Below, piece by piece: positions 28,067-48,085 of a stretch of 63,211 nucleotides of DNA; positions within the stretch are counted from its first letter, which is position 1, and each line of letters opens with the position of its first letter. A program made the translations under genes and the position numbers. The DNA lies in the IMG/VR virus record IMGVR_UViG_3300047554_000382, positions 1-63,211 of that record; one strand, written 5' to 3'. Below the pieces are notes generated by a model. That model was not told where the DNA came from. It did no database searches and worked only from the letters and a program-made list of their open reading frames with translations. The DNA comes from a virus.

Positions 28067-30162
28067 TACACAATCCTACCAGTAAAAATAATATAATTAA
28101 TTGTTAAGTAAGGGTTCATAACATTAATCGGAAGTCCGAGACTACTTGTTGTGTCGATTCCACCTGAATTAGATAGATACTGCCCTGTGGCAGCTCCTGA
28201 AGGACCGTTTCCACCGATAGCATCTGTATCTGCTGGTTCTCCCGGAACGTTTCTAAATGCATAATATTGATTTCCGGCATTGCCCTTTAAATCATGTGTA
28301 TGGTCAGGTAAATTATTAACTGCCACATCAACTTCTTCTTGACCGTTACCCAATCCTACCGTATCGGCTGTAACGTCAGTGACTCTGTCAGCTGATGAAG
28401 AAATTGTTGTTATTAAAGAACCATCTGCTATACTTGTAACAAACGTTCCCATGTTCATTGAATCTCTGCCTAGAGGGAATCGTCCTCTAAGATCAGGTAA
28501 GGCAAAAGTTGAAACACCTTGTAAAAGTCCAAGTGCTTTGTACGTATATTGAATAACTGCAAATAATTCTGGATAGTTTGCAATTAATTGTTCGCTTCCG
28601 TCACATAACAAATATCCATTTGGCACAGTTGTTCCAGCAAACGGAAAAATTGCTCCTGCTGGCACAGTGGCAACGTTGGCTAATAAGTTAGTTTTGTTAA
28701 TTCTTCTAAGGCCAGAACCAATACGATTAATAATAAATTCGTCTGTAGGATATGAATCAGTTACATTTGACTTATTACTAATAAAATCTGTACTCAGGAT
28801 AGTAGTAAATGTAGCTAGTCCGTCTACTTGCTGACCATTAAAGTCAACAGCATTACTAGCAACGTCTCCAGTTAACTGAAATCTAGTAGGACTAGTTAAT
28901 CTGCTTGCAGAACCTGTTACTGAACCAACTAGTTGTCCAGAAAATGTTCCAAAAAATGTATCGGCTGTGACTTGGTTAGCATAAACGTTTCTCCAAGATA
29001 ATTCCGAAGAACCTAAATCGTTAGTGCTGTCAACTTTAGGAAGTATAGTTCCAACTTCTAAGGATCCGCCAACTACTAAATTTTCTCCTACTTGAAGATT
29101 TTTTGTAACACTTGCACCGCCAGCAGTTTTAAAACTACCAGTGTTTAAGTCTGTAGCATTTGCAGTTCCTGTGATTGTCAACGACGTATCAGTATAAATT
29201 TGACCAACTACATCTAATGCTTGTGTTGGATTTGTTTTATTAATACCGATATTGGTTCCGGATACTGTTAATACATCTTTCGCCGTGCCGCCTTGATTTA
29301 CTCTAACAAAAATACTCGAACCTTCGGTCTTATTATAAATTACTGCCTCGCCCGCTGAGGTATTTGTAATCGATGTAGCGAGATCGGTTCCTAGGGTAAT
29401 TCCAGAATTACTACGAACATTTAATCCATAGTTTGTTGTGCTGGCTTTATCGCCTCTTAAAAAGTTTGAGGCTGCAACTGTTTCGCTACCTACTATTAGA
29501 GCGTCTGCTTTTTCTGCGACTCCCCATATTTTGTTAAGCACAGTTCCGTCACCGTCAAAATCTTTAGTAGAAATATTAATGCCCTGACGAATAACTTCAA
29601 AGCCTTCAATTGCCAGCTTTGGTGTAAAAGTATCCTTGCTTATAATTGCAACAATTTGATCTTGAACCACTAGTTCAATAATCGAATGAGCCGCATTAAG
29701 TGTATCGTAGACTTGTTCAACTTTAGGGCCTGACTGAGAACCTTCGCTAAACTGCGGACCTACTAAGATCCAGTTTGAACCAGACCACAGATATAACTGC
29801 TGATTTGCTGTGTCAGTCCATAGATCGCCCGTGACTGCTCGGCTTGCATCCGGTCTGCTCGGAGCTTTATGTACATTACCAGACGGTACCCATGCGTTAC
29901 CGTCCCAAATTTTTAATTGTGGTTGTGCTGGATCGCTGGTAACATTAGTGTCGTACCATAGCTGTCCAATTACTGGAGAGCTAGGTGCAGTTGCTCTAGC
30001 AAAATTTTCCAGTAAGTGTAAAAAATTCTCAGCTAGTGTTTTAGCGTAACCTGTGTAGTTCTTTCCAACAAAACTTAAACTAGTTTCATTGTTAATAGTC
30101 TGATCTTCTACAGTAATACTACCGTAGTTTGCTCTGTCGGTATGATCAATTTGATATGACAT
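28066..30162 (-). CDS. Tail fibre-like protein, paralogue 3, with tail collar domain
   Basis: A 698-residue protein. It has the shared N-terminal module (FVGKNYTGYAKTLAENFLHL, PVIGQLWYD, GDLWTDTANQQLYLW). The shaft follows, then from about residue 495 a tail collar domain like T4 gp12: VPAGAIFPFAGTTVPNGYLL, CDGS, TFALPDLRGRFPLG, and VNNLPDHTHDLKG, where His-x-His is a candidate metal-binding site, then GNQYYAFRN. In T4 the collar domain belongs to short tail fibres bound to the baseplate. The start overlaps the preceding stop as TAATG. Confidence 0.8.
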   Translation of the reverse strand: MSYQIDHTDRANYGSITVEDQTINNETSLSFVGKNYTGYAKTLAENFLHLLENFARATAPSSPVIGQLWYDTNVTSDPAQPQLKIWDGNAWVPSGNVHKAPSRPDASRAVTGDLWTDTANQQLYLWSGSNWILVGPQFSEGSQSGPKVEQVYDTLNAAHSIIELVVQDQIVAIISKDTFTPKLAIEGFEVIRQGINISTKDFDGDGTVLNKIWGVAEKADALIVGSETVAASNFLRGDKASTTNYGLNVRSNSGITLGTDLATSITNTSAGEAVIYNKTEGSSIFVRVNQGGTAKDVLTVSGTNIGINKTNPTQALDVVGQIYTDTSLTITGTANATDLNTGSFKTAGGASVTKNLQVGENLVVGGSLEVGTILPKVDSTNDLGSSELSWRNVYANQVTADTFFGTFSGQLVGSVTGSASRLTSPTRFQLTGDVASNAVDFNGQQVDGLATFTTILSTDFISNKSNVTDSYPTDEFIINRIGSGLRRINKTNLLANVATVPAGAIFPFAGTTVPNGYLLCDGSEQLIANYPELFAVIQYTYKALGLLQGVSTFALPDLRGRFPLGRDSMNMGTFVTSIADGSLITTISSSADRVTDVTADTVGLGNGQEEVDVAVNNLPDHTHDLKGNAGNQYYAFRNVPGEPADTDAIGGNGPSGAATGQYLSNSGGIDTTSSLGLPINVMNPYLTINYIIFTGRIV

Positions 30163-30773
30163 TAGGCTACCTCGCTAAGACCAGTTAAACTTTGAATACG
30201 TACAGTATAGTCAATTTGAATCAAACGATTTAAACTTTTTTGTACAGGATGGAAAATTACGTGTGTTAATAACTTACCAGTACCATTAGGGCTATAAGAT
30301 CTTAATCCCAACTCATCAAACACATAGTCAGATTTATTATTAGAAGTATTATCAAACGCCAATTGATCACTTGGTTCACCGTAGTCTAATAAGCAGGTTA
30401 CAAATACATCAGTATAATTTGTTCCAGTTACGTGTCTAGTCTCAATCTTGTTTCTAGTAGGATCTAAGTTAGTCACTGAACGATCGTCAACTACTTTAGA
30501 ATAAGTTTCAGAATACAAGCTAGCATTTGTGCCAGTGCTGTTTGGGGTTAAGTAGGTGATAATCCCGGTAGGATCTATAGTAGTTCCGCCGTTGCCAAAC
30601 GCCATTTCGTAGATAAATCCCTGTCCGGAATTAGCGATACTCTCTGCTAGAGCAACGCTCATATTTTCGTAATGAATGGCATTACGTTTATTAATCGCAA
30701 TTTCACCTGTTTCTGGGTACCATATTTTAATATGTCCCTCAACATGAATTCCTGAAAAGTCTTTACCTTGCAT
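30162..30773 (-). CDS. Putative baseplate/tail structural protein (203 aa)
   Basis: Not assigned to a named T4 protein. The sequence starts with VEGHIKIWYPETGEIAINK and contains EMAFGNGGTTIDPTGIITYL, then VFVTCLLDYGEPSDQLAFDN and VFDELGLRSYSPNGTGKLL. The beta-rich pattern is a structural protein of T4-like phages, probably linking fibres to the baseplate. A good late-type element lies at 30802-30793, just upstream. It is followed on the same strand by the three fibre genes. Confidence 0.6.
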   Translation of the reverse strand: MQGKDFSGIHVEGHIKIWYPETGEIAINKRNAIHYENMSVALAESIANSGQGFIYEMAFGNGGTTIDPTGIITYLTPNSTGTNASLYSETYSKVVDDRSVTNLDPTRNKIETRHVTGTNYTDVFVTCLLDYGEPSDQLAFDNTSNNKSDYVFDELGLRSYSPNGTGKLLTHVIFHPVQKSLNRLIQIDYTVRIQSLTGLSEVA

Positions 30774-30833: not shown

Positions 30834-33800
30834 TCACGGTATGTAATCTTCAACTACAGGAGCTGATTTTAAGAAGTTAGCTATTTGGTTATCCGAATCT
30901 ATCAGTCTTTCCTCAAATGGACTCCAAAGTTTTCCTATCTTTTTAATCACAACAATTTTAACGTTTTCGGGAACTATGTCTCTTAGCGTTAAAGTAGTTG
31001 TTCCAGTATTTACTGTAAACTCAGCTTCAAAAGTTGAGTCACCTTCTGGACTATAAGGATAACCGTTAGACTCTAAGAATAAACTGTAATCAGCTTTCTT
31101 TAATCTATAGCCGCCAACAAATACATCGACCTCGTTCTGACTGCTGAGTGTATAGTTAAGTGAGATAGTCTTGGTGCTTCCGTCGCTGATGAATGTTTCA
31201 ACTACGTGTTGATCTTGATAAGGAATAGTTTCTGTTACTCCGATATCTTGAACTACTGTTCCCGATGAGTGAACCACAGGAATACCAGTTCCTAGCGTTC
31301 CTCTTCTTAGTTGGCCTAATCTATTTCCATTCTTAGTAAAGAACTCAATACGCTCACCGTTTATTTCGATAATGCCGGGTAAGTTCTTGCTACGATTCGG
31401 ATTAGTAATCGTGTTAGGATTTTCAACTACAATTTCTATATCTGATTGAGTTAGATCAGTTAATAGGATGGTAGATTTGTTAGTGTGAATTCTCTTATAA
31501 TGAACACGATTTAACATGTCTTTAAACTGCATGAATCCAATCTTATCTTTTACGGAAGGGCTGGTAAACGCTAAAACTTGTATTACATCAGAATCTACAA
31601 GACTGTCAGATAGTTTAACTGTTAGTTTGTCAGAGTCTAAGAAATAGTCAACGCTGTGTGTTAACAGCTGACCGTTCTTTAATATCCACACTCTGTCATC
31701 TGATTCTACTACCTTTCTTAAGGCAAATTTACTGCCTCGCTTGTTAGTAAACGCAAAATAATCAGAAGTATCTGCTGTTAGTGTCACCGCAGGAATCATC
31801 TTATCTGTTGTTCTATCCAATCCTAAAATCGAATGATTATAGAAAGTAATAACTTCTATTTCAGTACCTTCTGGATAACTAGTGTTCAATTCAATAGTAC
31901 CGCTGTCAGTTATAGTGTAGTCGTTTTCAACATCGGCTACGATAGCCAATACTGCGCCTTCTACATATTTTATTCTAGAAATTTCAACGGTCATTATTGC
32001 TAAATCAAGGACATATTCGCGTCCAGGTAGTAGCTGTTCGCCGTTGATAAACAATCTAATGTTATTAGAATCTATACCATATTCTGCAAATTTATGCAAC
32101 GGTATGCTATAACTTAGATTATCATTTTCTAATGTATAGTACATAACTGTTGGCGGTCTTAAGAATGTTTGATCTACACGAACTAAGACATTTGTTTCGT
32201 ATGGTTTTAAATTCACGCCCGGTAACATCGCTGATGTTAGGTTTTCTAATTGATGTGTTAGTGTTGAGCCGTCAGCAATGATAGTCTGTGATTGTACGAT
32301 ACTTGAAGTTTCATAGATCGACGAGTCACCGTATTGTAGATCAATAATATAATTAATCACTGATCCTTCAGCTATTGGTTCACCAAATCTTATGCCGACT
32401 TGATTTGCTGTACCATAGCTAGCATCTGTTCTAAATAATTCGTAATCTATAACTTCGCCATTAACTAGTACAGTTGATGATATCGCATCTTCGATCCAAG
32501 TAGCCTTAGTTAGATATTCAACTGTGCTACCATCAGATACAAAATAATCTAAATCAAGTATTGTTTCAGCGTTAAAGCTAAAACTAATAATACTCACTAT
32601 AGATTTCTCAGCTGGTGCAACTTCAAAAATTATTTGGTTATTTTGCCAATCAATAGTATATGCTGTCTGTTCGATAAACTGATCGTCAACCTTAACCATT
32701 ACAGATCTAGCTGTTGGAAAATTTTGACCTATTGTAAATGCAAGGTCGCTTCCTGATGCTACATAATTTTTAAATAAGATCTTAGGAGCACCACCAGTTG
32801 GACTGTGGAAGACTTTAATTGCCACTGTATCAACTACTTGACCAGGAACTACTTCTTCAGGGGCATGGCTAGTCATTGGAGTAACAAATCCATCACCGTC
32901 AATGTTGATATCATCTGGTGCTAGTCCTGTTGCAGAACTATAGGTTAAATCTCCGCCGCTAATTTGAGAATCATATTCATCAGCACGTGGTAAGAAACTA
33001 CCATCACTCGTACTCTTACGGAATATAACTTTGTCGCCTTCGTTGATGTCTAAAGGATATTCGCTAGTAAGATTTGGTAGAGTAACTGTGGCCAGCACAC
33101 CATCACCGATTATTGTATTCATTACAATACCGTCGGCAGGAATCGTTCGTCCGTTAGGTTGAACTGTTACTCCGTCGTATAAATCAAAGTATGGATCATC
33201 AATTCTTCGTCCGTTCACATAAACGTTAATCTCTTCACCAACTGCTGGCACGTATGGTAATTCAAATGTATAACTGCTGTCGCCAACAGTTACGATATAA
33301 TCATCGAATGCCGCATCGAATCCGTCCCATGCATCTGAGAACCAAGGCAAAGCGTCCCAACCGCCACTAACTCCAAATCCGAGTCCTGTGATATTGACAC
33401 CGCCGTAATCAACTCCGGTCATTAACTGAGATAAATCTTTACCTAATCTGCCTGTTCCTGAGTTATAGTAGAAATTGATTCTGTCAGTAGCAGACAGATG
33501 ATTGAAATCTTTTTCATATGTAATTTCTACAGTTGCGCCGGCTGCTGGAGCAGTTGCTAGTGTAAGAGTACCTGAATAGCTAACAAATCCTTTTGACGTA
33601 GATTTTTTAGTTGCTAATGTGTAATCGTCTCGTAAAACTTCAACACCGTCGACAGTTACCAATGATGATCCTGTTTTAATATTAGGACTCCATTTTAAAG
33701 GCCACTGAAGTCTAGAACCAGTTCCAGTAAATGTTTCTGTATCAGTTAATTCAGTAAGAATATAGTTTTTAGAAATTCTGTCAAATTTAACTGAAATTTT

Positions 33801-36800
33801 GTTTGATCTGATTAAAGATTCCTCAATAACCGCTATAGCAGTTGCAGGAGTTCCGCCATCAACAAGCCCACCTGATATAGTAACTATAGGCGCTTTAAGA
33901 TATCCAGATCCCTGGCTAACTAATTCAATTCTGTTAACCTTTCCGTTAGATATAAATGCCTTAGCCGATGCGCCAGAGCCAAATCCCCCGGTTATTGTAA
34001 CAACTGGGGTTCCAATGTAGCCGGCTCCGCCGTCGACTATGTCAATTAATGTAACCTTAAATCCAACATTGTCTTGCCAATGTTTCCATGGGTAATTATC
34101 AATACCGGCATAATCAGTTACGATAGAGCCATCTTCTGCTACTTCAGATGATATAGTCGAAACAACTCTATCTGACGAAACTATTGGCATTAGATCAAAA
34201 TCAGTTACTGAACTAGAAGCATTATCTAATTTAGAATAAGAGCTTACGTATTCTCTAACTTTTGTTCTATAAGGTTTGACTTCGTTTACATACGATTCAA
34301 AATCTTCTAAGTTGTCATTGTTATAAGTCACTTTCTGTGTTAAGTTTCCAGCATTATGAGTTGCTTTAACAAAACTAGTTTTAAAGATCCAATCAACAAA
34401 TGTTTGCTCGTGTAATGCGTATCTTGCACTAGCAAAGAATAATTTTAGATATTCTGTTCTTAAATTATCAACTAAGATATAGTCTCTTATTGTTTCTAAA
34501 ATAATTCTTAATTCCACTGATGCTGAGTTGTCATAAGTGTCAGCATCAAATAATGGGCCATCGAAACCTAAAACATTATTTTTAAAACTGTATAATTTAT
34601 TTGAAAATTGTATTGTTCCGTTTTGACGACCTACTACTTTAAAACTCTGTGTATAGTCGATAGAAGCAACATCGGCATATTTTTCTAATAACAGCCAACC
34701 GCCAGTACCAACGTTTTTAACCTGTACTATATTTCCAATTTGAGAATTTAAAACCACTAGCTGATATGTGTTATCAACCACATGATCAATTTTTGTAAAC
34801 TGATTATAGCCAGTTGCATACCAATCCTGATATTGCCAGAACTTGGTCACATCATACGCTTGGCTTCTTGTCCTTGACCAAGTTCTTGTAGGTTTATCCC
34901 AAGAATAGATGCTCCACTTGTCAAAAGTTGAAGAATCGCTTTTTACTAGGACTGCAAACGGCCTAATAGATATCGTAGTATCCTGATCTCGATAACCTGT
35001 GCCTGCTTCTAAAATATCAACTCCAACAATTTGTCCTTGATCATTAATTACTGATTTGATCACAGCACTGCTTCCGGCTCCTGCAATCTTTAGATAAGGA
35101 GCATTAACATAACCGTAACCAGAATCAACAATGTTAATATCAACGATCTGTCCTTCTTCGACTACTGCCGTTAATCGAGCCTGTCGTAACTGTGCAGTAC
35201 CAATGAAGCGTAATTCAGCTTCAGTATCAATTGATACGTCCCATATACCAGATACTAGTGTTGGTTCAGGATCGAATCTATCTAAACTACTTAGATTAAA
35301 ATCATCAACTATTAAGTTTTCAGCTAAGACACTGTTTGTTCTTTCAATAAATTGCTTCACTGCTTCAATACGATTAACAAACATGCTCTGTCTTGGTCTG
35401 AATTCGACTCCGTATCTAAGTTTAATTGGTAGATTTAAATCAGGAACAGTCCTGTCATTTATATCCTTTCCTACTAAACTATCAAACCATTTTTGTTCAA
35501 TTTTTGTAGGAATCACAGTGTTAGGATGTTCGCTGATAACCTTCCATTGACTATGAGCATTAATTTCTTGATCATCTATTAACCAATACTGTACATTTAG
35601 TTTTGTATTTTTACCAACAACGAGATTAGTTAAATTTACAAGGCTGAATGAATTAGATCCAGTTAATGCCAAGCACGGATATCCATAGGCGATTGGATCT
35701 GCTATTAATGAAGCAAGATTAGATGCAGAATTAATTCTACCCGGAACAGATGGAATAGTTGTTTTATCTTTTACCCAGTAGTAATATGTGTTAGTAAATG
35801 TTCTGCTGACAGAATCATACTTTTTCTTAACACTATATACAGCATCTCCGTATTTGCTCTTACCAGTTATACCCTGAGCGATACCCTTATCTGTAGTCGA
35901 TAGTTTATCCCATTCTGATGGAAGATACTTAGTTTCGACCCACTCGTATAAATCAATACTTGCAGACTCATATAATCTGTTCCAAGTTGTTGAACGATAA
36001 ACCACAGACCCAGCTTGGTTTTCTAAGAATTTAGCTCTTGTTAGATCCCACCATAAAGACCCAACTTGATTTTTGGTCCAGTTCATTCCCTCGTCAACTG
36101 TGACTGCGTCCGTTCCAACACTGTAGGTTGCGGGATCAAAGAATGTCTTATATTTGATTTCTTGATCTGCTGGTCCAGGAATTTTGCCTTGGACTGGATC
36201 AACTATATCTAAGTAACTGATTAGTTCGTTAGTTATAGAATCATATATAAAGGCTTTTTTAATTTTTTTCAAGTTAGGCTTTTCGGTCTTTTCGTACAGG
36301 ACTGTCCAAGATTTTTCACCGATAGGCTTAGAATAAGAATAAACTATTCCAACATCGATGTCTTCTGAAACAGTTGAATCATCTCGTCTTGGTGCTCCAA
36401 CTAGGATGGTTCTATTGCTGACTGCTATAGAATTTCCGTAGTTTTCGTAGATAGTTGCATCAGTGTCTAAACTTTCACCATATACAAATGTATTGCTGTA
36501 TCTATCAAAGATATCAATTCGACCAGCATCGATTGCTTTATCAATTACAGCCAATGTTTCATTATCAAAAGATGTTGTTAAATCATCAAATGTAGTTCTT
36601 CTAAAAATATCGCCGTTGGCTGAAAATACCGCTAGGCCCTCGTCGTTATCTAAGAAAAATACACTAGCACCAAAGTTTTCATTAATTTCATTCTTCGGAC
36701 TATAGATAGTCTGTAATGCTGAATAAGTACCCGAGTAAGATTCAAATATCGATACCTTGCCCTGGTCTACTTTCTTAGAATCACTTAAAATACTGCCGAT

Positions 36801-39800
36801 AGCAAGATAGGATCCGCTGTCTGAAAGATCCACGCTTTCACCAAAACGTTCTTGACTATCGATCAAGATATTTTGTGATCCTAGTGTATCCACTAAATCA
36901 TATCCTTCGCCATTAAAGCTGTAAACAAAAACTTTTCCGGTATTTGTAATTCTTGATTCAGACAATATTACCCAGTCACTATAATTAATTGGGCCTGGTG
37001 TAGTTTCTTCTACAGCACATTGACGATAAGCACCGTAGGCATAAACTACTTGTCCTCCTGAGTAAACAATATTCTCTCTGAAGCGACCTTTGTAATTGTT
37101 ATACGATGTTTGATCTGCGCCTGGCGCAGAAATAACTAGTGTAGATCCGTTCGATGTTAAGTCGAAGTCATATCCGAAATAATCTCCAGCAAACACAGAT
37201 TCAACAGACTGCGATGCTGTTGGAGAATAAGAAACATCTGCATCAACTTCGCTGGTCACAATGTCGTGTGGGAAGTAACCTAGAATATTCTGGTCATACA
37301 ATAATTCCCAACAACTAGTGTTTTCTTCAAACGTGCCTTGAACTTCCGATACGCATCTATGTAGATCTTGATTATAAAATACAATGTCTCCCGGGTAATA
37401 ATACGAGCCGGCATCGAACATTCCGAGATAATTTCTATTATAATCCATATGCCATGCGATGCCACTGTCGTCAACAGTTGCCCCATATCTAAACATATAA
37501 ACTCGACCTTGGTTTGAATCAAAACCTGCACTTGAAACTGCTAATACATATTCACTATCGTTCTTAGCAAATTTCATTTTAGATCCAAACTTCTCGTTAG
37601 AGGCTGGTAGAGGACTTACAAAAGATTCTACTAGTTCGTAGGCTCCGGTAATTTGTCTTTGATATATTTCTACAAGGCCTTGACTTTCGTACGTGCTAGC
37701 TACTGCGGTTTCATCTGTATTAATTAACGAAACACTTTCCCAATCTTGAGTAAATCTGTTTACTGTTGATCCGTCACCGAGGATATCTTTTGTTGGTTTC
37801 CAGTGGGTGGTTCCAACTTTAACTATCGAGCCCGAAGGGTATGTACTAGTAGGTTCGTAAATACCTTCCCAGCGAGTTTTAACATAGGACGCAGTAGGCG
37901 ATGCTATTGCTAGCCACACACCGTCTTCAGACACTGCTGTTGAAGTTCCGTACTCATCACTTTCGATCGTAGCAACATCTTGCTCTGAGAAAATTGTCTG
38001 GGTCTCAATCCATTCGTCCTTGTCGGCTCCTCTAGTATAAACTAAAACTGAACTATTAGTTGATACTAAGGCAGTCTTTCCGTCTTTACTAACAGATACT
38101 GCCTTTCCAAAATTTAAATTTTCTGTAATATTAGAAGATGCTAATTGATTTCTAGTATAAACTGGTAAGTTTTGATAAACAGACCATTTACCTTGACCGT
38201 TGTCATCAACCCATACTAGTTCGTTAGGCTTAATTTCTCTAGGAAGGATGCTGTTTAACGAATCAATATGAGAGACCCTAGCCTCGTTAAATTTGTAAGT
38301 TAATATCTCTGAGCTATCGCTAAATGGTTCCCAGTTAGTGATTTTCTTTTTAATATTGATTGTTCTTAGTGTAATAGAATCAATTACGTGGAACCCTTTG
38401 ATTAATTCTGAATTCTCAATACCAATGATATCCCCAGCACGAAGCTCCGGAAGAGCACTACAAGTTAATGATAGTGTACCATTAGAATATTCAACGTCTT
38501 CAATCTTAAAATCTGTTTTAGTAAATCTATAAACATTCCAATCTCTGCCCTCGAATGCACACCAAACATAGTCGCCTTCAACAAAAGTTGAGATGTCATA
38601 GTTTGCCGCATCAGCTAATACATCAACATTCAATTTAACATTTTCATATTTGACATAGCCGGGAGTTCTTAAGAATTCTGTTGTATCTGTTACAGACCAT
38701 GGATTATTATTATAACCCACTGGTTTAATATAGATATCCGACGGACGCTGTCTATAAACAAAGTCTACTACATTAGGATCGATAGTTGATGTTAGTTCTA
38801 CAGGCTGAGGATTAATCTTAAATTGTGACTCATCTAAACTAAATTCTATTTCATTAAATGCATCCACTGATCCGTACTGGCCAACACGTACTGCCCACTC
38901 TTCATTAAATGTCAAACTTTCTTGATTGTCGGCACTTAGTACATCAAATAACTTGTTAAAGACGTTTTGTGTACCTTTTTCAATAATCATACCTTGATAA
39001 AATTTGTATTGGCTTACATCGTCTTTAACGATATTCTCAAGGTACTGTCTCTTTTGATATCCGATTAAGTGTTGAGCTAATCTTTGCTGTTCAGCATCAA
39101 AATTATCTGTATCTAGATCGTAGAAGTCAGTAAATTGTTCTGCTCTATAATCCCAGTTTGAATATAATGTTGGCACTGGTTTATCAGTTTGGATGATCCA
39201 GTCGTCACTGTTAAATTCGGCCGCGCCTGGAAGGAACTTAGACGCTGTATAATAAAACTCTTTGTATTTTACAATATCGCCGAGATTATAATCAGTCCAT
39301 GATGTCCAGTCAACTATCCTAGCTTGGTCAAAGATAAATCCTGGAATGTTAAAACCGCCAGACCAATCTTTAGACATGTAACCTAATACTTTTACTCTAT
39401 CTTGTCTGTATCCTGGCTCAACATCATAGATTGTGTCATTAAACAATGTTGTGTTGTCAAGCAATAATACATGTTCTTTCTGAATTAGATATAAAGTAGC
39501 TCCGTATATACCGTGATTACTGTTAGTTACAGATAGAGAGAAGGACCCTTGATCTCTAAACAAGTTTGTAAAGTCGGGCTCTAATTTTTGTCCGTCTACT
39601 CTAAAAATTTTGTATCCGTAAAACGTATCCAATATATTATCCACAACTTCATTGTTGAGGTTTGCTACTAGGGTGCTTGCGGCTGGGCTCAATGATAGAA
39701 CGGATCCTTCGGCCCAGTTTTGAGTCGTCCAGAATAAAAATTCTTTAATTGAAGTTTCCCAGTTGTTGACAGTTTTAGTATTAGTATTAAACTCATCAAA

Positions 39801-42800
39801 AACAAATCCTTGCTTTTCTAAATAAGTCCCGTACCCTTGTAAGAAATCAACAACCTCTTGAATCTTTTCAAATTTAGTGCCGTACCCAATGGTGATTTCT
39901 GTGTTTAGGTCCCACTGCTTTCTTAATTCTGCTTCTCTTCCGCCGATAACCGGTAGTTCGGGTAATCTAGTAAAGAGATCAGAATCAAATGTTGCGCCGC
40001 TCTGATGGCTTACTTTGACTCTAAAATATTGATTGTTAACGCTGACTACTTTGCCAACAACATAATATCTATCAGGCGTCCATTCAACAAACGTTTCAGA
40101 GATTCCTCCAATACGAATCGTTCTGCCTGTTAGAACCCAGGGGTAGTAAGTAAAGAACGGCTCATCAAGATTGTAGCCTCTAACTTCAAAGCCGTCGGCA
40201 AACTTTGTAATCATAACACCACTGTAAACTAATTTTCTAGTTGGCGATGATGTGTTTAAGAAAATATTATAGTTTTCTTCAGGTACAAATACTCCTCCAG
40301 AGCTTGTCGGAGATTTACTGTCGAGTAAAATTTTAAATTTTGCCTTAGATGTAAACCCACCTAGTTTAGAACCGATACGATTTGTTAAAGTAGCTAGTTC
40401 TTCTTTGTACTGGTCTATTAAAGCAGTTGTATCTGATGTTAAGTATTCAACTACGTAGTTGATCAATCCAGCAGTCTGGACTCTAGTGTCACTAAGTGCA
40501 GTCGACGGTACTGCTAAATCTTTAAGTTTTAATCTTAACCCAGTGTCACTATAAACTAGCTGATTGGTTAGATTCTTTACGATTCTACTTCTGTCAAGAC
40601 ATGTACCTAAAACCATATTTGGTTTTAATAACAATGCAGTTTGAATTAATGCAAATGGGTAATAGCTAGAACGTCTCCAAGCTGTTTCGACAGGTGCTTG
40701 GTCCCCGAACACATAATAGCCGCCTTCGGTGGGTCTAATATAACCGTTGACTGCATTTGCATATACTGGATCTAATAAATTTCCATCTTCATCAACAGGA
40801 ATCGATTTTTCTAAGATCGGTCTTATAAATTGTTCTAGAGTCCTGGCTGGCTTTCCTGGTTCTTTTAACAGCCCTTTAGAAAGATCTTCCCATAAAATTT
40901 TATTATCACTAGTGTACGGAGCAGGTCCGTAGACATCTTGCCACCACGACGGTTCAATACTTAGACCCAGGCATTCCCAAGGTCTTAAATGAGGTTGGTC
41001 AGTATCGAATAGCCACTTGTAGATGCCCCTCCAGTATGCAGGAACTGCGCTGCCATCATCTGCATAATTTCCTCTATAGTTAAAGGTAAACGGATTTAAT
41101 CTGTCATATCCTGTTTGTTTTGTAAAATCTTGATTGATCGTTGCGGTCCACTGATAGAAGAACCTTCCTAAAATTTGATCTGTTTCTTCTTTTGAAAAAT
41201 CTGTAGATCTATTATATCCAGTAATAAAATTAAAAATATCAAAAATATCTTTATTGTATTCTACTTTAATGTTATTAAAAATACGCTTCTCTAGATCAAG
41301 AATAAGGTCGTCTCTAAAGTCTCCAAATGCCACAGTTATGCTACCGTCGTGCCCTAGTATAACATTGGTCGGTTCCTGGTAACTAGTGTCTAGATAAATC
41401 GCAGGTTCAAACTTAGGATATAGGCCCAACTTAGTCGGTGTTGGTGGACAGAAAGATCCATCAGTAGATTTATATTCATATACTTCAATTAAGTCATCTA
41501 CTGTTAGGTCTGTTAAAATTTCAAAGAAGATATCGTCACCGAACACATAATCTTTACCATGTACAAGTTGTGTACCATTTAGGTAGACATTTATTGCCTT
41601 GTTAGACAACGATGCTAAAGTAAAGGAGTCGGATAACGGATATGTTTTAATTCTAGAATCTAATACAGTATATTCTAATCTGTCGTATCCAGTATATCCA
41701 AACATGTCCGAAAGATAGTAGGGTGTTGTTTTAGGTTTGTCTTTAGACATTTCTTTTAAAACAAAATCTACGTGTTCTTTTGTGTCAGCATCAATACCTA
41801 ATGACGCGGCAGTTACTAAGAACGCTCTCTTAAATTTACCGTAATCTTCTCTAGCTTTATCAAGTGCTTTAAACACATTAGATGTTTTAGATCCAAGATG
41901 ATATAAACTTAGATTTAATGAGCCGCTGTGTTGAACAAACTTAACACCGTAAGGAGTTACATTACCTAAATCTCGAAGATTTCCAGTTCCTGGAAAAACT
42001 CCATTAAAATCATTTAAATTATCAATAATACTATCAACATGATCAATTACTTGACCTAGAGTAAATTCTGTTAGATTATCGTTCAACGGATTATTTTGGA
42101 AATTAATAGGTAGCTCATAATGTCCGTTGTTATTTTTTTCCTGAGCAGTGTATAATTTTAAAGTAACTACATCTGTTGTTGCGGCTGGTGTAGCTAGCAC
42201 TACTTTCATCTTAGATGATGTAGTCACTATAGAATATTTAGATTTGTCTACTCTTAGGCCATTGATATAAACTTTAACTACTAGGTCTGTTAGATCTGTT
42301 ATATTATCAAAACAATCAATTACAAAATTATTTGTTGTTTCTGTTCCGTTAAAGATCCTAATAACTGGTTGATAATTTTCAACCAGTGAAGTTTTCCACC
42401 CGTTCTCATAGCTGAATACATTTAAATCACTAATTTTTCTAACATACCCAACGTCTGTGGTTTCACTTTTCACTAGAGTGATTTCTTTGTATTCAAATGT
42501 GTCGTTTAATAAATTAAACTCAAAAGTGATATCACCTATGTTATTGATATTTTTATAGGTTAAAGGAAATTTTAATTCGGTGTCGGCTGTTCCAGTTCCC
42601 CTCTTATAAGAAAATATTTTATTTCCTTTAAAAGTTGAGCTATCGTATGCAGTACTATCAGAGAAACTTAATTCGTCTGAATTAAAAAGATCAAAAAGAG
42701 GCTCTTGATTAACTTCAGTCTTAGTCTGTCCTAGTATCCAATCTGATCCATTATACCAGTACATCAACCCCTGGTTAATTAATCCTTGATTAATTAATAC

Positions 42801-44636
42801 GGTTTCAAATTCTAAAGGAGTTGTGTCGGCTTCTTCTGTTAAATTTATTTGACGGCGAATTCCAGAAAATACTTCTAGCTTATGTACTCCCGAGCCTATT
42901 TCAAAAATTTCTGTTTCAACGTAGAAGTTTTTATCATTGAATAATTTAATTGTAACGTCATCAATTACAGAAACATAATATGCTTTACGATTTATTAGGC
43001 CGTTTACATTTAAGTTTCCGTTGTTAAGATATAAGACTTGGTTACCAGTTGTTAATCCGTGATTAGTTTCAAATCTAATAGTATTGTTTTCTACATCAAT
43101 ATTAGTTAGAGCTAAAAATTCTAACTGTCTACCTGGATTAATTACATCAATAAAATTAACTTTAAAAATTTTACCGTTCACTAATCTGTCTTTGTCTGCA
43201 ACAAACAACACTCTCATTCCGTTGGCTAGATCAATGCCGTCAACGTTATAGCCAAGGCTTCCTTCAATTGTCGAGAATACATCTGTAGTAAAGGTGTCAA
43301 TTAAATCAACATTAGCTTTAGCCTTGTGGCCAAAATTAAATAATTTTAAATTTGGTTTAAATTCGATGATCGGTCTAATTGCTCGCTGTGCTTGATCGAG
43401 TTCAAGAGATTGACCGCTTAACTCGGCTGAAGCCGTAATAACATCTTGATGGAACCAACGATTATATCGACTCCATTGGTTTCTATCAATACTTCCTCTG
43501 CTGATTAAAACATAATCTTTATCTCGAGGAAATGCTGTTGCTGTACTAAAAGGATTTTGATCAAACGGCTCATCGTCAAATAACAGATTTTGTTCTTGAC
43601 TGTATCCACTGATAATTTCAAGATCGCTTTCAGAAATTAGCTTGATCGAATCTCCTACTCCTTCGACATACCAATAGCCAGTACTATAAACTTCAGGAGT
43701 TATGTTTCCTGAAAAATATAGCTTCATGCCGTTTGAAAGAGCAACACCGTTGCTCATTGTGTAAGTTTTCTTACCTAAAATTTCAGTTTCTACATCTAGA
43801 TATGTGTTTTCATCTATGTCTAAAATGTGAAATACACCGCCGGTGTTTGCATCTGTTTCACTGACATAGAACAGCACATCGGGCGTATTAACACCGACTG
43901 TAAAGGTAATCGTTCCGGATTGTACTGACGATGCTGACACTCCGTCAGAGTACTTTTCTAAATCTCCTGCTACTCTAGAAGTTTTAATTGTAAATGGATT
44001 ATTCGGCGAGTTAATTTCAAACTCGTAGGTTTGTCCTCTGTACAATGTCAATGTTGGGTTTCTGGTCAATCCATCTGGACTGAATAAAAATGCATAGTTG
44101 TCTACTTCGTCAACTACAGAAACTGTGTATCTACTAACAACATCTTGCTGTTGCCCTAAGACTTCTATCGGTGCCGGGCCGTAGGGTAACCAATAGTAAT
44201 TTTGGTAGTTTACAAACTTATCCCATTCAATGTGTGGGTCCCAAGAATAAAATTCTTGCGAGTTTAATTTTTGATGATTTTTAGTCGTACCACCAAGGAC
44301 ACTAATTTGATTAATATGATCGATGTAATCTTTGTAAAAATTTACATTACCTAAGTAGTCAATTACTACTGCTGAAGGTTCTAGCTGATAATCTTGTCTG
44401 GTTTTGTCAGATGCTTGCAAGAAAATATCTGAAGACGTAACAGCCTTGGCATTCTTTCTACCAATGTATCCGTTTACTTTTTTAACAGTACCCGGCTGAG
44501 TAAGTTGATCTAATGTTGAACCTAAGAACTTTTTGTTACCATCTGTTCTATAAAATCTTGGTAATAGGTCGGATGTAGACCTTTTTTCATTTTTTGAGAT
44601 TGGTAGATTTGGCTCTGATTGATTTTTGTTTGCCAT
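30834..44636 (-). CDS. Giant virion structural protein (4,600 aa)
   Basis: A 4,600-residue protein following gp6 and preceding the fibre genes, where T4 has gp7-gp12. In order (approximate residues): an N-terminal region with LLPRFYRTDGNKKFLGSTLD and FVNYQNYYWLPYGPAPIEV; two INGxxL-type repeats at 790 and 1017; cellulose/chitin-binding-like modules at 1525 and 1790; a block at 2170-2770 with seven FG-GAP-like repeats (NFGKAVSVSKDGKTALVST and NENFGASVFFLDNDEGLAVF), probably a seven-bladed propeller, with three more binding-like modules at 2268, 2415 and 2528; two GxGY repeat blocks (3165-3215, 3525-3605); then seven INGxxL repeats from 3664 on. It ends with EINGERIEFFTKNGNRLGQL and LRRGTLGTG. 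It likely builds a baseplate or fibre arm with adhesive modules. The one-base overlap with gp6 (TAATG) implies coupled translation. Confidence 0.8.
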   Translation of the reverse strand: MANKNQSEPNLPISKNEKRSTSDLLPRFYRTDGNKKFLGSTLDQLTQPGTVKKVNGYIGRKNAKAVTSSDIFLQASDKTRQDYQLEPSAVVIDYLGNVNFYKDYIDHINQISVLGGTTKNHQKLNSQEFYSWDPHIEWDKFVNYQNYYWLPYGPAPIEVLGQQQDVVSRYTVSVVDEVDNYAFLFSPDGLTRNPTLTLYRGQTYEFEINSPNNPFTIKTSRVAGDLEKYSDGVSASSVQSGTITFTVGVNTPDVLFYVSETDANTGGVFHILDIDENTYLDVETEILGKKTYTMSNGVALSNGMKLYFSGNITPEVYSTGYWYVEGVGDSIKLISESDLEIISGYSQEQNLLFDDEPFDQNPFSTATAFPRDKDYVLISRGSIDRNQWSRYNRWFHQDVITASAELSGQSLELDQAQRAIRPIIEFKPNLKLFNFGHKAKANVDLIDTFTTDVFSTIEGSLGYNVDGIDLANGMRVLFVADKDRLVNGKIFKVNFIDVINPGRQLEFLALTNIDVENNTIRFETNHGLTTGNQVLYLNNGNLNVNGLINRKAYYVSVIDDVTIKLFNDKNFYVETEIFEIGSGVHKLEVFSGIRRQINLTEEADTTPLEFETVLINQGLINQGLMYWYNGSDWILGQTKTEVNQEPLFDLFNSDELSFSDSTAYDSSTFKGNKIFSYKRGTGTADTELKFPLTYKNINNIGDITFEFNLLNDTFEYKEITLVKSETTDVGYVRKISDLNVFSYENGWKTSLVENYQPVIRIFNGTETTNNFVIDCFDNITDLTDLVVKVYINGLRVDKSKYSIVTTSSKMKVVLATPAATTDVVTLKLYTAQEKNNNGHYELPINFQNNPLNDNLTEFTLGQVIDHVDSIIDNLNDFNGVFPGTGNLRDLGNVTPYGVKFVQHSGSLNLSLYHLGSKTSNVFKALDKAREDYGKFKRAFLVTAASLGIDADTKEHVDFVLKEMSKDKPKTTPYYLSDMFGYTGYDRLEYTVLDSRIKTYPLSDSFTLASLSNKAINVYLNGTQLVHGKDYVFGDDIFFEILTDLTVDDLIEVYEYKSTDGSFCPPTPTKLGLYPKFEPAIYLDTSYQEPTNVILGHDGSITVAFGDFRDDLILDLEKRIFNNIKVEYNKDIFDIFNFITGYNRSTDFSKEETDQILGRFFYQWTATINQDFTKQTGYDRLNPFTFNYRGNYADDGSAVPAYWRGIYKWLFDTDQPHLRPWECLGLSIEPSWWQDVYGPAPYTSDNKILWEDLSKGLLKEPGKPARTLEQFIRPILEKSIPVDEDGNLLDPVYANAVNGYIRPTEGGYYVFGDQAPVETAWRRSSYYPFALIQTALLLKPNMVLGTCLDRSRIVKNLTNQLVYSDTGLRLKLKDLAVPSTALSDTRVQTAGLINYVVEYLTSDTTALIDQYKEELATLTNRIGSKLGGFTSKAKFKILLDSKSPTSSGGVFVPEENYNIFLNTSSPTRKLVYSGVMITKFADGFEVRGYNLDEPFFTYYPWVLTGRTIRIGGISETFVEWTPDRYYVVGKVVSVNNQYFRVKVSHQSGATFDSDLFTRLPELPVIGGREAELRKQWDLNTEITIGYGTKFEKIQEVVDFLQGYGTYLEKQGFVFDEFNTNTKTVNNWETSIKEFLFWTTQNWAEGSVLSLSPAASTLVANLNNEVVDNILDTFYGYKIFRVDGQKLEPDFTNLFRDQGSFSLSVTNSNHGIYGATLYLIQKEHVLLLDNTTLFNDTIYDVEPGYRQDRVKVLGYMSKDWSGGFNIPGFIFDQARIVDWTSWTDYNLGDIVKYKEFYYTASKFLPGAAEFNSDDWIIQTDKPVPTLYSNWDYRAEQFTDFYDLDTDNFDAEQQRLAQHLIGYQKRQYLENIVKDDVSQYKFYQGMIIEKGTQNVFNKLFDVLSADNQESLTFNEEWAVRVGQYGSVDAFNEIEFSLDESQFKINPQPVELTSTIDPNVVDFVYRQRPSDIYIKPVGYNNNPWSVTDTTEFLRTPGYVKYENVKLNVDVLADAANYDISTFVEGDYVWCAFEGRDWNVYRFTKTDFKIEDVEYSNGTLSLTCSALPELRAGDIIGIENSELIKGFHVIDSITLRTINIKKKITNWEPFSDSSEILTYKFNEARVSHIDSLNSILPREIKPNELVWVDDNGQGKWSVYQNLPVYTRNQLASSNITENLNFGKAVSVSKDGKTALVSTNSSVLVYTRGADKDEWIETQTIFSEQDVATIESDEYGTSTAVSEDGVWLAIASPTASYVKTRWEGIYEPTSTYPSGSIVKVGTTHWKPTKDILGDGSTVNRFTQDWESVSLINTDETAVASTYESQGLVEIYQRQITGAYELVESFVSPLPASNEKFGSKMKFAKNDSEYVLAVSSAGFDSNQGRVYMFRYGATVDDSGIAWHMDYNRNYLGMFDAGSYYYPGDIVFYNQDLHRCVSEVQGTFEENTSCWELLYDQNILGYFPHDIVTSEVDADVSYSPTASQSVESVFAGDYFGYDFDLTSNGSTLVISAPGADQTSYNNYKGRFRENIVYSGGQVVYAYGAYRQCAVEETTPGPINYSDWVILSESRITNTGKVFVYSFNGEGYDLVDTLGSQNILIDSQERFGESVDLSDSGSYLAIGSILSDSKKVDQGKVSIFESYSGTYSALQTIYSPKNEINENFGASVFFLDNDEGLAVFSANGDIFRRTTFDDLTTSFDNETLAVIDKAIDAGRIDIFDRYSNTFVYGESLDTDATIYENYGNSIAVSNRTILVGAPRRDDSTVSEDIDVGIVYSYSKPIGEKSWTVLYEKTEKPNLKKIKKAFIYDSITNELISYLDIVDPVQGKIPGPADQEIKYKTFFDPATYSVGTDAVTVDEGMNWTKNQVGSLWWDLTRAKFLENQAGSVVYRSTTWNRLYESASIDLYEWVETKYLPSEWDKLSTTDKGIAQGITGKSKYGDAVYSVKKKYDSVSRTFTNTYYYWVKDKTTIPSVPGRINSASNLASLIADPIAYGYPCLALTGSNSFSLVNLTNLVVGKNTKLNVQYWLIDDQEINAHSQWKVISEHPNTVIPTKIEQKWFDSLVGKDINDRTVPDLNLPIKLRYGVEFRPRQSMFVNRIEAVKQFIERTNSVLAENLIVDDFNLSSLDRFDPEPTLVSGIWDVSIDTEAELRFIGTAQLRQARLTAVVEEGQIVDINIVDSGYGYVNAPYLKIAGAGSSAVIKSVINDQGQIVGVDILEAGTGYRDQDTTISIRPFAVLVKSDSSTFDKWSIYSWDKPTRTWSRTRSQAYDVTKFWQYQDWYATGYNQFTKIDHVVDNTYQLVVLNSQIGNIVQVKNVGTGGWLLLEKYADVASIDYTQSFKVVGRQNGTIQFSNKLYSFKNNVLGFDGPLFDADTYDNSASVELRIILETIRDYILVDNLRTEYLKLFFASARYALHEQTFVDWIFKTSFVKATHNAGNLTQKVTYNNDNLEDFESYVNEVKPYRTKVREYVSSYSKLDNASSSVTDFDLMPIVSSDRVVSTISSEVAEDGSIVTDYAGIDNYPWKHWQDNVGFKVTLIDIVDGGAGYIGTPVVTITGGFGSGASAKAFISNGKVNRIELVSQGSGYLKAPIVTISGGLVDGGTPATAIAVIEESLIRSNKISVKFDRISKNYILTELTDTETFTGTGSRLQWPLKWSPNIKTGSSLVTVDGVEVLRDDYTLATKKSTSKGFVSYSGTLTLATAPAAGATVEITYEKDFNHLSATDRINFYYNSGTGRLGKDLSQLMTGVDYGGVNITGLGFGVSGGWDALPWFSDAWDGFDAAFDDYIVTVGDSSYTFELPYVPAVGEEINVYVNGRRIDDPYFDLYDGVTVQPNGRTIPADGIVMNTIIGDGVLATVTLPNLTSEYPLDINEGDKVIFRKSTSDGSFLPRADEYDSQISGGDLTYSSATGLAPDDINIDGDGFVTPMTSHAPEEVVPGQVVDTVAIKVFHSPTGGAPKILFKNYVASGSDLAFTIGQNFPTARSVMVKVDDQFIEQTAYTIDWQNNQIIFEVAPAEKSIVSIISFSFNAETILDLDYFVSDGSTVEYLTKATWIEDAISSTVLVNGEVIDYELFRTDASYGTANQVGIRFGEPIAEGSVINYIIDLQYGDSSIYETSSIVQSQTIIADGSTLTHQLENLTSAMLPGVNLKPYETNVLVRVDQTFLRPPTVMYYTLENDNLSYSIPLHKFAEYGIDSNNIRLFINGEQLLPGREYVLDLAIMTVEISRIKYVEGAVLAIVADVENDYTITDSGTIELNTSYPEGTEIEVITFYNHSILGLDRTTDKMIPAVTLTADTSDYFAFTNKRGSKFALRKVVESDDRVWILKNGQLLTHSVDYFLDSDKLTVKLSDSLVDSDVIQVLAFTSPSVKDKIGFMQFKDMLNRVHYKRIHTNKSTILLTDLTQSDIEIVVENPNTITNPNRSKNLPGIIEINGERIEFFTKNGNRLGQLRRGTLGTGIPVVHSSGTVVQDIGVTETIPYQDQHVVETFISDGSTKTISLNYTLSSQNEVDVFVGGYRLKKADYSLFLESNGYPYSPEGDSTFEAEFTVNTGTTTLTLRDIVPENVKIVVIKKIGKLWSPFEERLIDSDNQIANFLKSAPVVEDYIP

Positions 44637-47600
44637 TAACTATTCCCCGAACTTGTTACATCTTGCTGGCTTATAACTGTGATTTCTGCTTCGATCGCAC
44701 CGGCACTTTTAATTTTGCTAGCAGTGATAGCAGAAATTATTTCAACGTCATCGATGCTTGCACCGTTGATAAAAATTTGATCTTTTTCAGCTCTAATTTC
44801 ATACAGACTACCGAATGTTAAATTATTTTGTTTAGGAACTATGATAAAGTTAACGATGTTCGGTGCTAGTCTATTCATAACATACGTAGATAGCTCACTA
44901 AAATAAAAGCTATCACCAAAGTCCCAATTTTCTAAACTAAAAAATTCATTGATTGCTGAAAGAACTCTAGACTTTACATCGTTATCACTGATTACAACTT
45001 CATCATTTTTAATAACTTTAAACGTGGCCTGTACATCTGAACTTGCTTTTTCTCCGAACAGCACTTTATATTTTACTGGATGATATATGATCTCATCGCT
45101 GATAGATTTAATCTTATTAAGCTGACCCGACATAAGATTATACAAATAATCAGTGCTTGGAGGCAGTGGCTCAGTCGCTAACGATCCTTTGATCCATTGT
45201 CTAAAAGTTCTATCGTATTGCTTAGTCAATAAAAATACATCGATTAAATTTGTAAGACCTGGGTCAATTCTTGATTCGTAATCAGCGTTATGTATGTACT
45301 GAAATTTTAAATTTTGTCTACCAACATATACTTTATAATCTAACGAAACAGTTAGTTCAGCAGTAGTTGTGTTCAACTGTTTAACAGTATCTGTATCGAC
45401 AAAATAAAAATATTGTCCGTTAGTATATAAAGATAGTGCCGATAAATCGCTTTCAGAATTTAATATTAAAACAGTTTGTGCTGAGTTACTAACCCATCGA
45501 TAATCTTCTTGTCCTGTCTGTACTTCATATCTTTCAAGTATCACATACTTGTTAAGTGGATCAGTAATAGGGTCAACAATGTCTTCAAATAAATTTGGAT
45601 CATCGACTATGCTGTCGTCATCTGTGTCGCTAAATGTAATTTGAATTTTCTTAGTATCTACATAGCCGTCAAGGCCTTTAAATTCTTCAGTAATTTCCCA
45701 ATCACGATCAAAGGTAAAGGGGCTTGTAGAATCAGGCTGTGTATTAATATTTAAAATTTTAATTTTGTCTTTTACCACAGTGTTAGTTCTTGTATCATAG
45801 ATTTTATCACTAGCATCATAGAAGAATCTAATCTGTGCATCACTTTCAAAAATATATCTTAATCGTCTTGATTTAACAGTATAAAACTCAGTATCAGTTG
45901 TAAACAAAACTAACCAGCTTGAATCAAGCTGTTGATTAGAGTTGTCGCCCTGTTTACCTAAACTAAAATTATTTGAAGTGTTTAGATTCACTTCAAATAT
46001 AATTTTCCATGTTTTAGTTTCAATGTCGTAGCGTAGACCAAATGGCTTATTTGCAAAAATTAAATCAACCATTGTTGCTATGGTATTTGATTCAATAGTT
46101 GTTCTCCAGACCGGGATAATTTGAGACAGTAGTGCAGAACTAGGAATAATATCATTAAGTACAACCGGTCCTGATCCGTCACTTAGAATACCTGTACCGC
46201 TGTTTGTTCCGTCGCCGGCTACTGACACAACCTTACACCATAGTGTTTTTGTAGAATGCTTTTCAGTTGGTGTTCCTGTGACTAACTGATTATTGTTTCT
46301 CTTATCAAAATATTTTCCTTCTGGTGCAACAAATTTTAATAAGGCACCGGCGGTAATAAATCGAAGATTTGTTCCAGTGTTAGACCCAGTTTTATAAGGC
46401 GTGGCATCTAAAGTATCACCAATATATCCAGTCGACATATTTGTCTCGGATGTCCTTGCATACCAACTTACATTTAAAGAATCTGTTGCAATTTTAAAGA
46501 ATTTTGAATAATAAAAATCTCTAAGACTATTTGATTCTAACACCTCTGATAACTGATTATAGATCACTGCTTCAATATCAGATCTAGATAGGTACTGAAA
46601 TCTAAAACTGTCAAAAAATTCTTCTCTGTAAAGGGCACCGTCATCACCAAATAAGTTTGTCTTTGAATATTTGCCTGTTGGATCGACTAGATCGAAATAT
46701 CTACTAATTCCACTTGAAGATCTATTAATCGCTTTTACCTTAACTATTTCTTGATTTACTGCTAGCGGACTAATATTATAATCCTCTCCAGTAATCATTC
46801 TATTTTGTGTGTAATAGGTTGCAGGAGCATTTGCCTTAATGCTAGTATTACTTTCTGTTTCGCTGGCATTTGCTACAGAACTCTGCAGAGCTAGAGAAAC
46901 AGTAAGTGTTTGTGCTTGACCTGTATTAGAAACATACGGTATCTCTAACGAAACGTTTCTAATATCTCTAGGATTAATCACATAAGAGATACCATTACTG
47001 GTTCTATAATAAACTCTAAACGAACCTTTTGGTAAATTTCCAAATGTGCCGTCACTGAAGATAAGGCTTATTCTATCACCGGCTCTGGTAATCACTCCGT
47101 AGATATTTCTAATGGTTTTCTTAAGGCTGTTATAGATAACATTGTTACCTTCCAATGCAGGCACTTTATCCCAATATTCAGTTTCTAATCCGTTTTGATC
47201 TAAACGATACAACCATACGTCGTCGTTGTTAATATTAATTGCATCAATGTCTATTGATTCATTAGTAGCTGGTTGGTCAATAGTGAACACGCCTTGGTTT
47301 AAAAGGCCTTGTCTAAAGTGAAGGAAGAATCCTGTATTGCTAGAACCGTTGCCTTTACCGTCGTTTCTATATAAGAATGCCAAACGGTTACCGACCAATG
47401 GAGGTTCTTCTACTATTGTTCCATCGCTCAATCCAGTCGAAACAACCTCAAAGGTCATATTTCGTCCGTCAACTGTCTTGCTAAATCCATATACTGGAAC
47501 GTCAGTGTTGTTTGACTGAAAACGATATTGTTCGGTAGGAATTCCATAGACGGTATCTTTGTCGTCTGGATTTCCAAATTGTCTGCTTGACGGTAGGGCC

Positions 47601-48085
47601 GCATTGACAACTTTAATAAATTGATCGTACCAGTTTGAATTAGCAGGATCGTTCCACCCTACTACTTGCCCTGATAGATTTCTGCCGTTAGAGTCATAGA
47701 CATTTTCTGTAGTGGATACTGTGGTAAATTTTAAAAGTCCCGATCCTGCTATGTTTCGTTTAGCGTTGTAACTTAGAAGTCTTGCAAGACGAAGAATGCT
47801 TTCTCGTCTTTCTGATAATTCTAAAAAGTTATCTCTAGCATTTAGGTCAGTTCTAAAAGCTAGACTCTGTCCAAGGAAGGCAATTAAATCAATTAAGGCT
47901 AGATATTCAGAGCTCTCAATGTAATCATTAAAGTCTTCTGGGTAATTTTCTCTAATATATTGGATCATTACCCTACGTAAATTTTCAAAGTCGTAGCTTT
48001 GGAAATCCGCATTTCTGAAACTTTGATATATGCGTTTCCAATCTTCTGCTACGAGTAATCTATTTTGTCTATCAGTTGCTGACAT
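44636..48085 (-). CDS. 6: Baseplate wedge subunit gp6-like
   Basis: A 1,149-residue protein. The N-terminal region, VMIQYIRENYPEDFNDYIES, followed by YLALIDLIAFLGQSLAFRTD and ILRLARLLSY, is the diagnostic start of T4-like gp6, the wedge protein that forms the inner ring around the hub. A gp6/J-type central domain follows with VIRNVSLEIPYVSNTG-like strands. Length is longer than T4 gp6 (660 aa), as in cyanophage gp6. A late-type GCTAAATACC element lies at 48114-48105, and GGGAAGAG provides a ribosome-binding site. Confidence 0.85.
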   Translation of the reverse strand: MSATDRQNRLLVAEDWKRIYQSFRNADFQSYDFENLRRVMIQYIRENYPEDFNDYIESSEYLALIDLIAFLGQSLAFRTDLNARDNFLELSERRESILRLARLLSYNAKRNIAGSGLLKFTTVSTTENVYDSNGRNLSGQVVGWNDPANSNWYDQFIKVVNAALPSSRQFGNPDDKDTVYGIPTEQYRFQSNNTDVPVYGFSKTVDGRNMTFEVVSTGLSDGTIVEEPPLVGNRLAFLYRNDGKGNGSSNTGFFLHFRQGLLNQGVFTIDQPATNESIDIDAININNDDVWLYRLDQNGLETEYWDKVPALEGNNVIYNSLKKTIRNIYGVITRAGDRISLIFSDGTFGNLPKGSFRVYYRTSNGISYVINPRDIRNVSLEIPYVSNTGQAQTLTVSLALQSSVANASETESNTSIKANAPATYYTQNRMITGEDYNISPLAVNQEIVKVKAINRSSSGISRYFDLVDPTGKYSKTNLFGDDGALYREEFFDSFRFQYLSRSDIEAVIYNQLSEVLESNSLRDFYYSKFFKIATDSLNVSWYARTSETNMSTGYIGDTLDATPYKTGSNTGTNLRFITAGALLKFVAPEGKYFDKRNNNQLVTGTPTEKHSTKTLWCKVVSVAGDGTNSGTGILSDGSGPVVLNDIIPSSALLSQIIPVWRTTIESNTIATMVDLIFANKPFGLRYDIETKTWKIIFEVNLNTSNNFSLGKQGDNSNQQLDSSWLVLFTTDTEFYTVKSRRLRYIFESDAQIRFFYDASDKIYDTRTNTVVKDKIKILNINTQPDSTSPFTFDRDWEITEEFKGLDGYVDTKKIQITFSDTDDDSIVDDPNLFEDIVDPITDPLNKYVILERYEVQTGQEDYRWVSNSAQTVLILNSESDLSALSLYTNGQYFYFVDTDTVKQLNTTTAELTVSLDYKVYVGRQNLKFQYIHNADYESRIDPGLTNLIDVFLLTKQYDRTFRQWIKGSLATEPLPPSTDYLYNLMSGQLNKIKSISDEIIYHPVKYKVLFGEKASSDVQATFKVIKNDEVVISDNDVKSRVLSAINEFFSLENWDFGDSFYFSELSTYVMNRLAPNIVNFIIVPKQNNLTFGSLYEIRAEKDQIFINGASIDDVEIISAITASKIKSAGAIEAEITVISQQDVTSSGNS

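Follow-up and report, generated by a model that had tools for sequence, protein, structure and literature searches.

The 4600-aa protein encoded at positions 30834..44636 (minus strand) of the window (a complete IMG/VR virus record, though itself a fragment, of 63,211 bases) is read here as part of the baseplate wedge, with a propeller from which exchangeable modules are displayed, most likely contacting host-surface polysaccharide (probability about 0.6). According to this reading, it would be a baseplate-wedge-associated structural protein in the place after gp6, which in T4 is held by gp7, and its conserved body (residues 1-2100 and 2790-3500) would be built into the baseplate. At one site the body would have taken in a closed seven-bladed propeller of the FG-GAP/integrin-alpha type, serving as a display platform from whose blades 2-4 exchangeable modules of small size would be shown; in this protein they are three CBM5/12-like modules, and they would most likely touch host-surface polysaccharide during adsorption. 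Direct support comes from the predicted fold, the inserted state of the propeller, its modular ports and faster evolution, the gene position, and the presence of homologues in virions; we infer in addition that the propeller is exposed, that it binds glycans, and which of its faces meets the host. Giant proteins beside the baseplate wedge occur in many jumbo myophages and are found in virions. In a more doubtful extension of the reading, host recognition would be built into the core wedge protein itself in a large uncultured phage group.

Genomic position and protein family

As an earlier note on this DNA had claimed, the giant gene is a single ORF of 4600 codons for a structural protein: the profile of PHROG 10938 (phrog_10938, 'virion structural protein') matches it with E=0 and 1064 bits over the conserved body, and residues 1-1950 and 2785-3484 align in tblastn comparisons with homologues from jumbo myophages. 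All genes of the neighborhood described here are on the minus strand. The gene order begins with a gp5-like hub / tail lysozyme (48589..50208; phrog_13211) and a gp25-like baseplate wedge protein (48135..48578; phrog_261/phrog_43), followed by a gp6-like baseplate wedge protein (44636..48085; phrog_10646 + phrog_219), and the ATG of the giant gene shares one base with the last base of the gp6-like stop codon (TAATG). Directly downstream are a conserved 203-aa protein (30162..30773; phrog_11259) and then a Collar-type short tail fibre protein (28066..30162; Pfam Collar, E=5e-18); according to their gene tables, several related phages have a gene of similar size to the 203-aa protein after the giant gene.

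PHROG 10938 homologues of 3323-4555 aa immediately follow the gp6-like gene in PA5oct, RaK2, 121Q, and GAP32, and the same position is occupied in Atu_ph07, Phosso, XaC1, and a Vibrio jumbo phage; the SCTP-2 homologue is preceded by a long unannotated gene. Members such as PA5oct EST35_0128, RaK2 ORF070, 121Q 582, GAP32_230, and the Atu_ph07 structural protein resemble the giant protein in their conserved body and post-gp6-like position, and the family, with the giant protein included, ranges from 3300 to 4600 aa. Mass-spectrometric detection of EST35_0128 in virions is stated in the PA5oct record. In phAPEC6, the 382-kDa gp245 lies beside the wedge protein gp244 and was represented by 17 unique peptides in the virion proteome (PMC7247149); judged by position and mass, it is very probably a homologue of the giant protein. 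The baseplate setting proposed by the earlier note agrees with this gene order and with the homologues in PA5oct and phAPEC6 virions, which together point to a baseplate-associated protein. Relatives of its N-terminus are encoded in about 120 IMG/VR stretches; the two largest records with such a relative measure 364 and 383 kb and have open frames of 4976 and 4652 codons, respectively. The source is taken to be a freshwater myophage of the jumbo type. PHROG 10938 is thus a known, though unnamed, jumbo-phage family, and the propeller insert is its new part.

In a few records (L003, L072, and L045) the giant gene is divided into two or more ORFs (1351, 1678, and 1542 codons in L003), through either assembly errors or real splitting. 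The window also contains three radical-SAM genes at 17322-18539 (minus strand), 16361-17338 (plus strand), and 6470-7348 (plus strand), of which one has a SPASM domain and one is QueE-like; the first lies in a same-strand run of unannotated genes reaching 23738.

The conserved N-terminal core (residues 1-2100; 38337..44636, minus strand, as are all further features of the protein) includes two CBM-like modules, can be aligned with 9/9 isolate homologues, and has an identity of 44-86% per 50-residue block up to residue 2050 among 29 lake relatives. A domain at residues 170-290 (43767..44129) is shared with cyanophage baseplate/tail fibre proteins at 29-41% identity, among them gp9-like connectors, a tail spike, and a 'baseplate wedge initiator', and looks like a mobile structural domain. 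The tblastn matches of the N-terminal half to cyanophages were confined to these residues, and a homologous giant protein in cyanophages was rejected. A small barrel is predicted directly before the propeller (residues about 2037-2118; 38283-38528) and resembles a phage endosialidase domain; it matches the phi92 and K1F endosialidases with Z 7-8.5 over about 75 residues, and unrelated E1 enzymes match equally.

Two GxGY blocks were found, as had been claimed, at residues 3165-3230 (34947..35144; motif copies at 3169 and 3208) and 3524-3595 (33852..34067; motif copies at 3533 and 3572, with a phrog_460 match at 3524-3590). The C-terminal part (residues 3640-4600; 30834..33719) is a chain of INGxxL-type beta modules with a DUF2460 match below the Pfam cut-off at residues 3972-4032. 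The strict INGxxL motif is present in 7 copies, with 0.3 expected by shuffling (maximum 2), and a looser motif in 12. The earlier count of nine therefore depends on the definition used.

The inserted propeller and its modules

A blade profile was built from other phages only, with the window left out, and applied to the whole giant protein at a threshold of 5 bits. Exactly seven matches were obtained within residues 2173-2749, at 7.4-25.9 bits, and the best of 200 protein shuffles scored 1.9 bits. Blades 1 to 5 gave 18.3 bits (residues 2173-2195; 38052..38120), 19.9 bits (2226-2250; 37887..37961), 20.1 bits (2346-2373; 37518..37601), 25.9 bits (2484-2508; 37113..37187), and 20.8 bits (2595-2619; 36780..36854), respectively; blade 6 was the weakest at 7.4 bits (2651-2677; 36606..36686), and blade 7 scored 12.3 bits (2731-2749; 36390..36446) and coincides with the best stretch of Pfam FG-GAP_2 (2725-2758). 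FG-GAP_2 matches the giant protein with E=6e-10 and is found in 27/30 family members, and a PDB search with the alignment profile alone retrieved integrin alpha-4 (E 5e-8). The seven FG-GAP-like repeats that the earlier note had placed at about residues 2170-2770, and the resemblance to FG-GAP/integrin propellers that it had suggested checking, were thereby recovered.

An AlphaFold2 model of residues 2105-2810, generated from an alignment with 29 relatives, reached a pLDDT of 82.6 and a pTM of 0.82 and places a seven-bladed beta-propeller with inserts at residues 2158-2779 (36300..38165), with an integrin alpha / G-beta fold. The top Foldseek match of the model was integrin alpha-v (E 9e-12), and in VIA-align comparisons integrin alpha-M scored Z 26.5 (351 residues, rmsd 3.4) and G-beta Z 26.6. 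These structural alignments cover the ring completely, which makes a closed propeller of seven blades a well-supported prediction, in line with the complete propeller that had been proposed. A wider scan returned 229 IMG/VR stretches that encode a relative; among the best 80 of these, all seven blades were detectable in 19 and three to six in the others, and none had more than seven.

None of the nine isolate homologues examined carries a detectable propeller at the corresponding site: the blade profile found no FG-GAP blades in them, scanning six equivalent segments with Pfam gave no propeller either, and two queries of isolated phages retrieved no propeller at this site. The conserved blocks that border it are about 85-175 aa apart in RaK2, 121Q, GAP32, XaC1, the Vibrio phage, and PA5oct, about 380 aa in SCTP-2, and about 1550 aa in Atu_ph07 and Phosso. 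The SCTP-2 segment (residues about 2012-2390) has no Pfam match and could be an unrecognised domain, and the Atu_ph07 and Phosso segments (residues about 1660-3200) hold six or more GxGY-type repeats; the site seems to be especially prone to receiving domain arrays of different kinds. Judged from the sequences, the propeller is a lineage-specific insert into a conserved protein family, and its gain by the lake lineage, rather than its loss by the others, is the simpler reading. The decorated propeller of the earlier note was thus retained, but not as the design of the whole beaded chain, since it is an insert in a conserved family.

CBM5/12-like modules were located with a second window-free profile, for which the shuffle maximum was 6.9 bits. 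Exactly five were found at 8.5-64.9 bits, two in the core and three in the propeller, in agreement with the five W/Y-G-D-x-V-x-Y modules that had been claimed. The core modules lie at residues 1516-1560 (39957..40091; 49.0 bits) and 1774-1814 (39195..39317; 64.9 bits). Two of the propeller modules are inserted between strands 2 and 3, in blade 2 (residues 2260-2300; 37737..37859; 14.5 bits; port at residue 2253) and in blade 4 (residues 2519-2560; 36957..37082; 8.5 bits; port at residue 2509), as placed from the strand order of the AlphaFold2 model. The remaining one connects strand 3 of blade 3 to blade 4 (residues 2407-2446; 37299..37418; 22.1 bits; port at residue 2385); this insert is poorly modelled (pLDDT below 50), and its loop is either 3-4 or 4-1. 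Only this module lies between blades, as the earlier note had stated for all three, and the others are within blades 2 and 4. The blade 4 module is marginal alone, and stronger modules occupy the same port in relatives.

The comparison with CBM5/12 proposed in the earlier note gave a divided result. Pfam CBM_5_12 recognised the two core modules together with 30.8 bits against a cut-off of 26.2, whereas a Pfam scan of the three propeller modules of the window gave no match, and these are matched by the family-specific profile only. The likeness to CBM5/12 (chitin-binding type 3) extends to short structural matches to chitinase/deacetylase modules at 26-31% identity. In the conserved core, CBM5/12-like modules were present in 27/27 relatives.

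Among relatives, the island comprising the propeller and its inserts is 449-960 aa long, and the same loops hold CBM-like modules (single or tandem), GxGY-type, collagen-like, or other inserts. In about ten of 29 relatives the propeller is bare (no insert of at least 15 aa), so the modules are not essential. In the 19 seven-blade islands of the wider scan, CBM matches occur only after blades 2, 3, or 4, long spacers are mostly found after the same blades, and the spacing of blades 5-6 is at most 61 residues. In the propeller of one relative (L077:17027-17686), a CBM-like module is flanked by a collagen-like GxQ repeat, which is missing from a close relative with 78% identical flanks (L074).

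Sequence change and alternative readings

The propeller is the fastest-evolving stretch of the otherwise conserved giant protein. Mean identity per 50 residues among the 29 lake relatives drops to 26-46% within the propeller and is again 69% at residue 2801, and pairs of relatives with 80-90% identical flanks average 68% identity in the island. In close pairs, pairwise dN/dS was 0.09-0.27 for the island and 0.03-0.12 for the flanks at similar dS; the island therefore shows faster protein change under purifying selection. Positive selection is unsupported because dN/dS stays below 1, and relaxed constraint could give an equal pattern. Wholesale swapping of propellers between lineages was rejected, as island divergence tracks that of the flanks and no similar islands were found within distant flanks.

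That the propeller is the fastest-changing part suggests that it is the site where the phage touches its host, and its rapid change, the exchange of modules at fixed ports, and the resemblance to carbohydrate modules together argue for contact with variable host-surface glycans. The main alternative, though an unlikely one, is that the propeller is an adaptor docking fibre or spike proteins, such as the downstream collar fibres, onto the baseplate; the modules would then be spacers or protein-protein contacts, and the propeller would change fast because its docking partners do. Protein docking is a common role of propellers, the genes just downstream include Collar-type and other tail-fibre-like ones, and the constant presence of core modules fits this explanation as well; those modules may be purely structural, which counts against the glycan-contact reading, as do the low score of the blade 4 module and the bare propellers of about ten relatives. 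Less expected of a fixed docking surface are modules that come and go without propeller loss and belong to unrelated types at one port.

We give less weight again to the view that propeller and inserts alike are surface bulk without specificity, that is, a tolerant loop region accumulating domains under relaxed constraint with no specific ligand. It would accommodate a dN/dS that is raised but below 1, the lack of wholesale island swapping between lineages, and the presence of no more than a short linker in other homologues, by which the propeller is dispensable to the family. Random decay would, however, break the ring, and the best 80 of 229 relatives never exceed seven blades; inserts, moreover, are concentrated behind blades 2-4, and the stretch from blade 5 to blade 6 has none. 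That the propeller is an enzyme degrading glycans, a depolymerase comparable to the K1F and phi92 endosialidase propellers, appears very improbable. The barrel preceding the propeller and the proposal that phiKZ gp131 binds or degrades a receptor (PMC4901313) speak for it, but the barrel matches unrelated E1 enzymes just as well, Pfam matched no enzyme family, no Asp-box motif was found, and the blades are of the FG-GAP type.

The reading of the propeller as a display platform for glycan-contacting modules is preferred. Its extension, that uncultured freshwater jumbo phages tune their host range by glycan modules plugged into wedge-protein propeller ports and not by tail fibres alone, is tentative, and we would sooner doubt it than rely on it. 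The lake lineage offers a handle on such questions, since the insertion site and the fold are each single, the loop ports are defined, and naturally occurring propellers range from bare to heavily decorated; recombinant fragments of about 450-950 aa would allow a direct test of what a giant baseplate protein touches.

Comparison with known systems

The giant protein resembles T4 gp7 in its position directly after gp6 and differs in being over four times longer. Homology to gp7 was not detected by hhalign of nine giant-protein slices (best probability 0.4%). A model of core residues 1055-2130, made in search of a wedge-core fold, was of low confidence (pTM 0.35), and gp7 was absent from the matches listed; the best of these were small beta domains, including E1-enzyme and endosialidase barrels, which are too common to carry meaning. 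The protein is hence better called 'gp7-position' than gp7. A literature search for an FG-GAP/jumbo/baseplate protein found none.

The earlier note had regarded the arrangement as unknown from T4, which stands insofar as no relation to gp7 was found; among myophage baseplates, however, there is a precedent for a propeller with seven blades. The C-terminal propeller of phiKZ gp131 (PDB 4GBF) has seven blades, is located at the baseplate periphery of a jumbo myophage, and is a suspected receptor binder, as described in PMC4901313. It belongs to a different protein, and inserted sugar-binding-like modules are not described in that source. phiKZ gp131 was absent among the PDB sequence matches to the propeller profile. 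The receptor-binding protein Gp45 of S. aureus phage phi11 is likewise a propeller presented at the baseplate and is proposed to hold GlcNAc (PMC4901313); unlike the giant protein, it has five blades and is a separate small protein forming a homotrimer with stem and tower.

With the integrin alpha / FG-GAP propeller, the predicted structure shares seven blades, the FG-GAP profile, a fold match of Z about 26, and an inserted domain. The integrin alpha-I domain lies between propeller blades 2 and 3. The inserts differ, being an I domain there and CBM-like here, and identity is 15-18%. As calcium-binding DxDxDG loops were found neither in the giant protein nor in its 29 aligned relatives, the propeller is assigned to the same fold and FG-GAP_2 repeat family only and not to integrin alpha itself. 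Phages thus look to have come convergently to a propeller like that of integrins, with recognition modules inserted into it.
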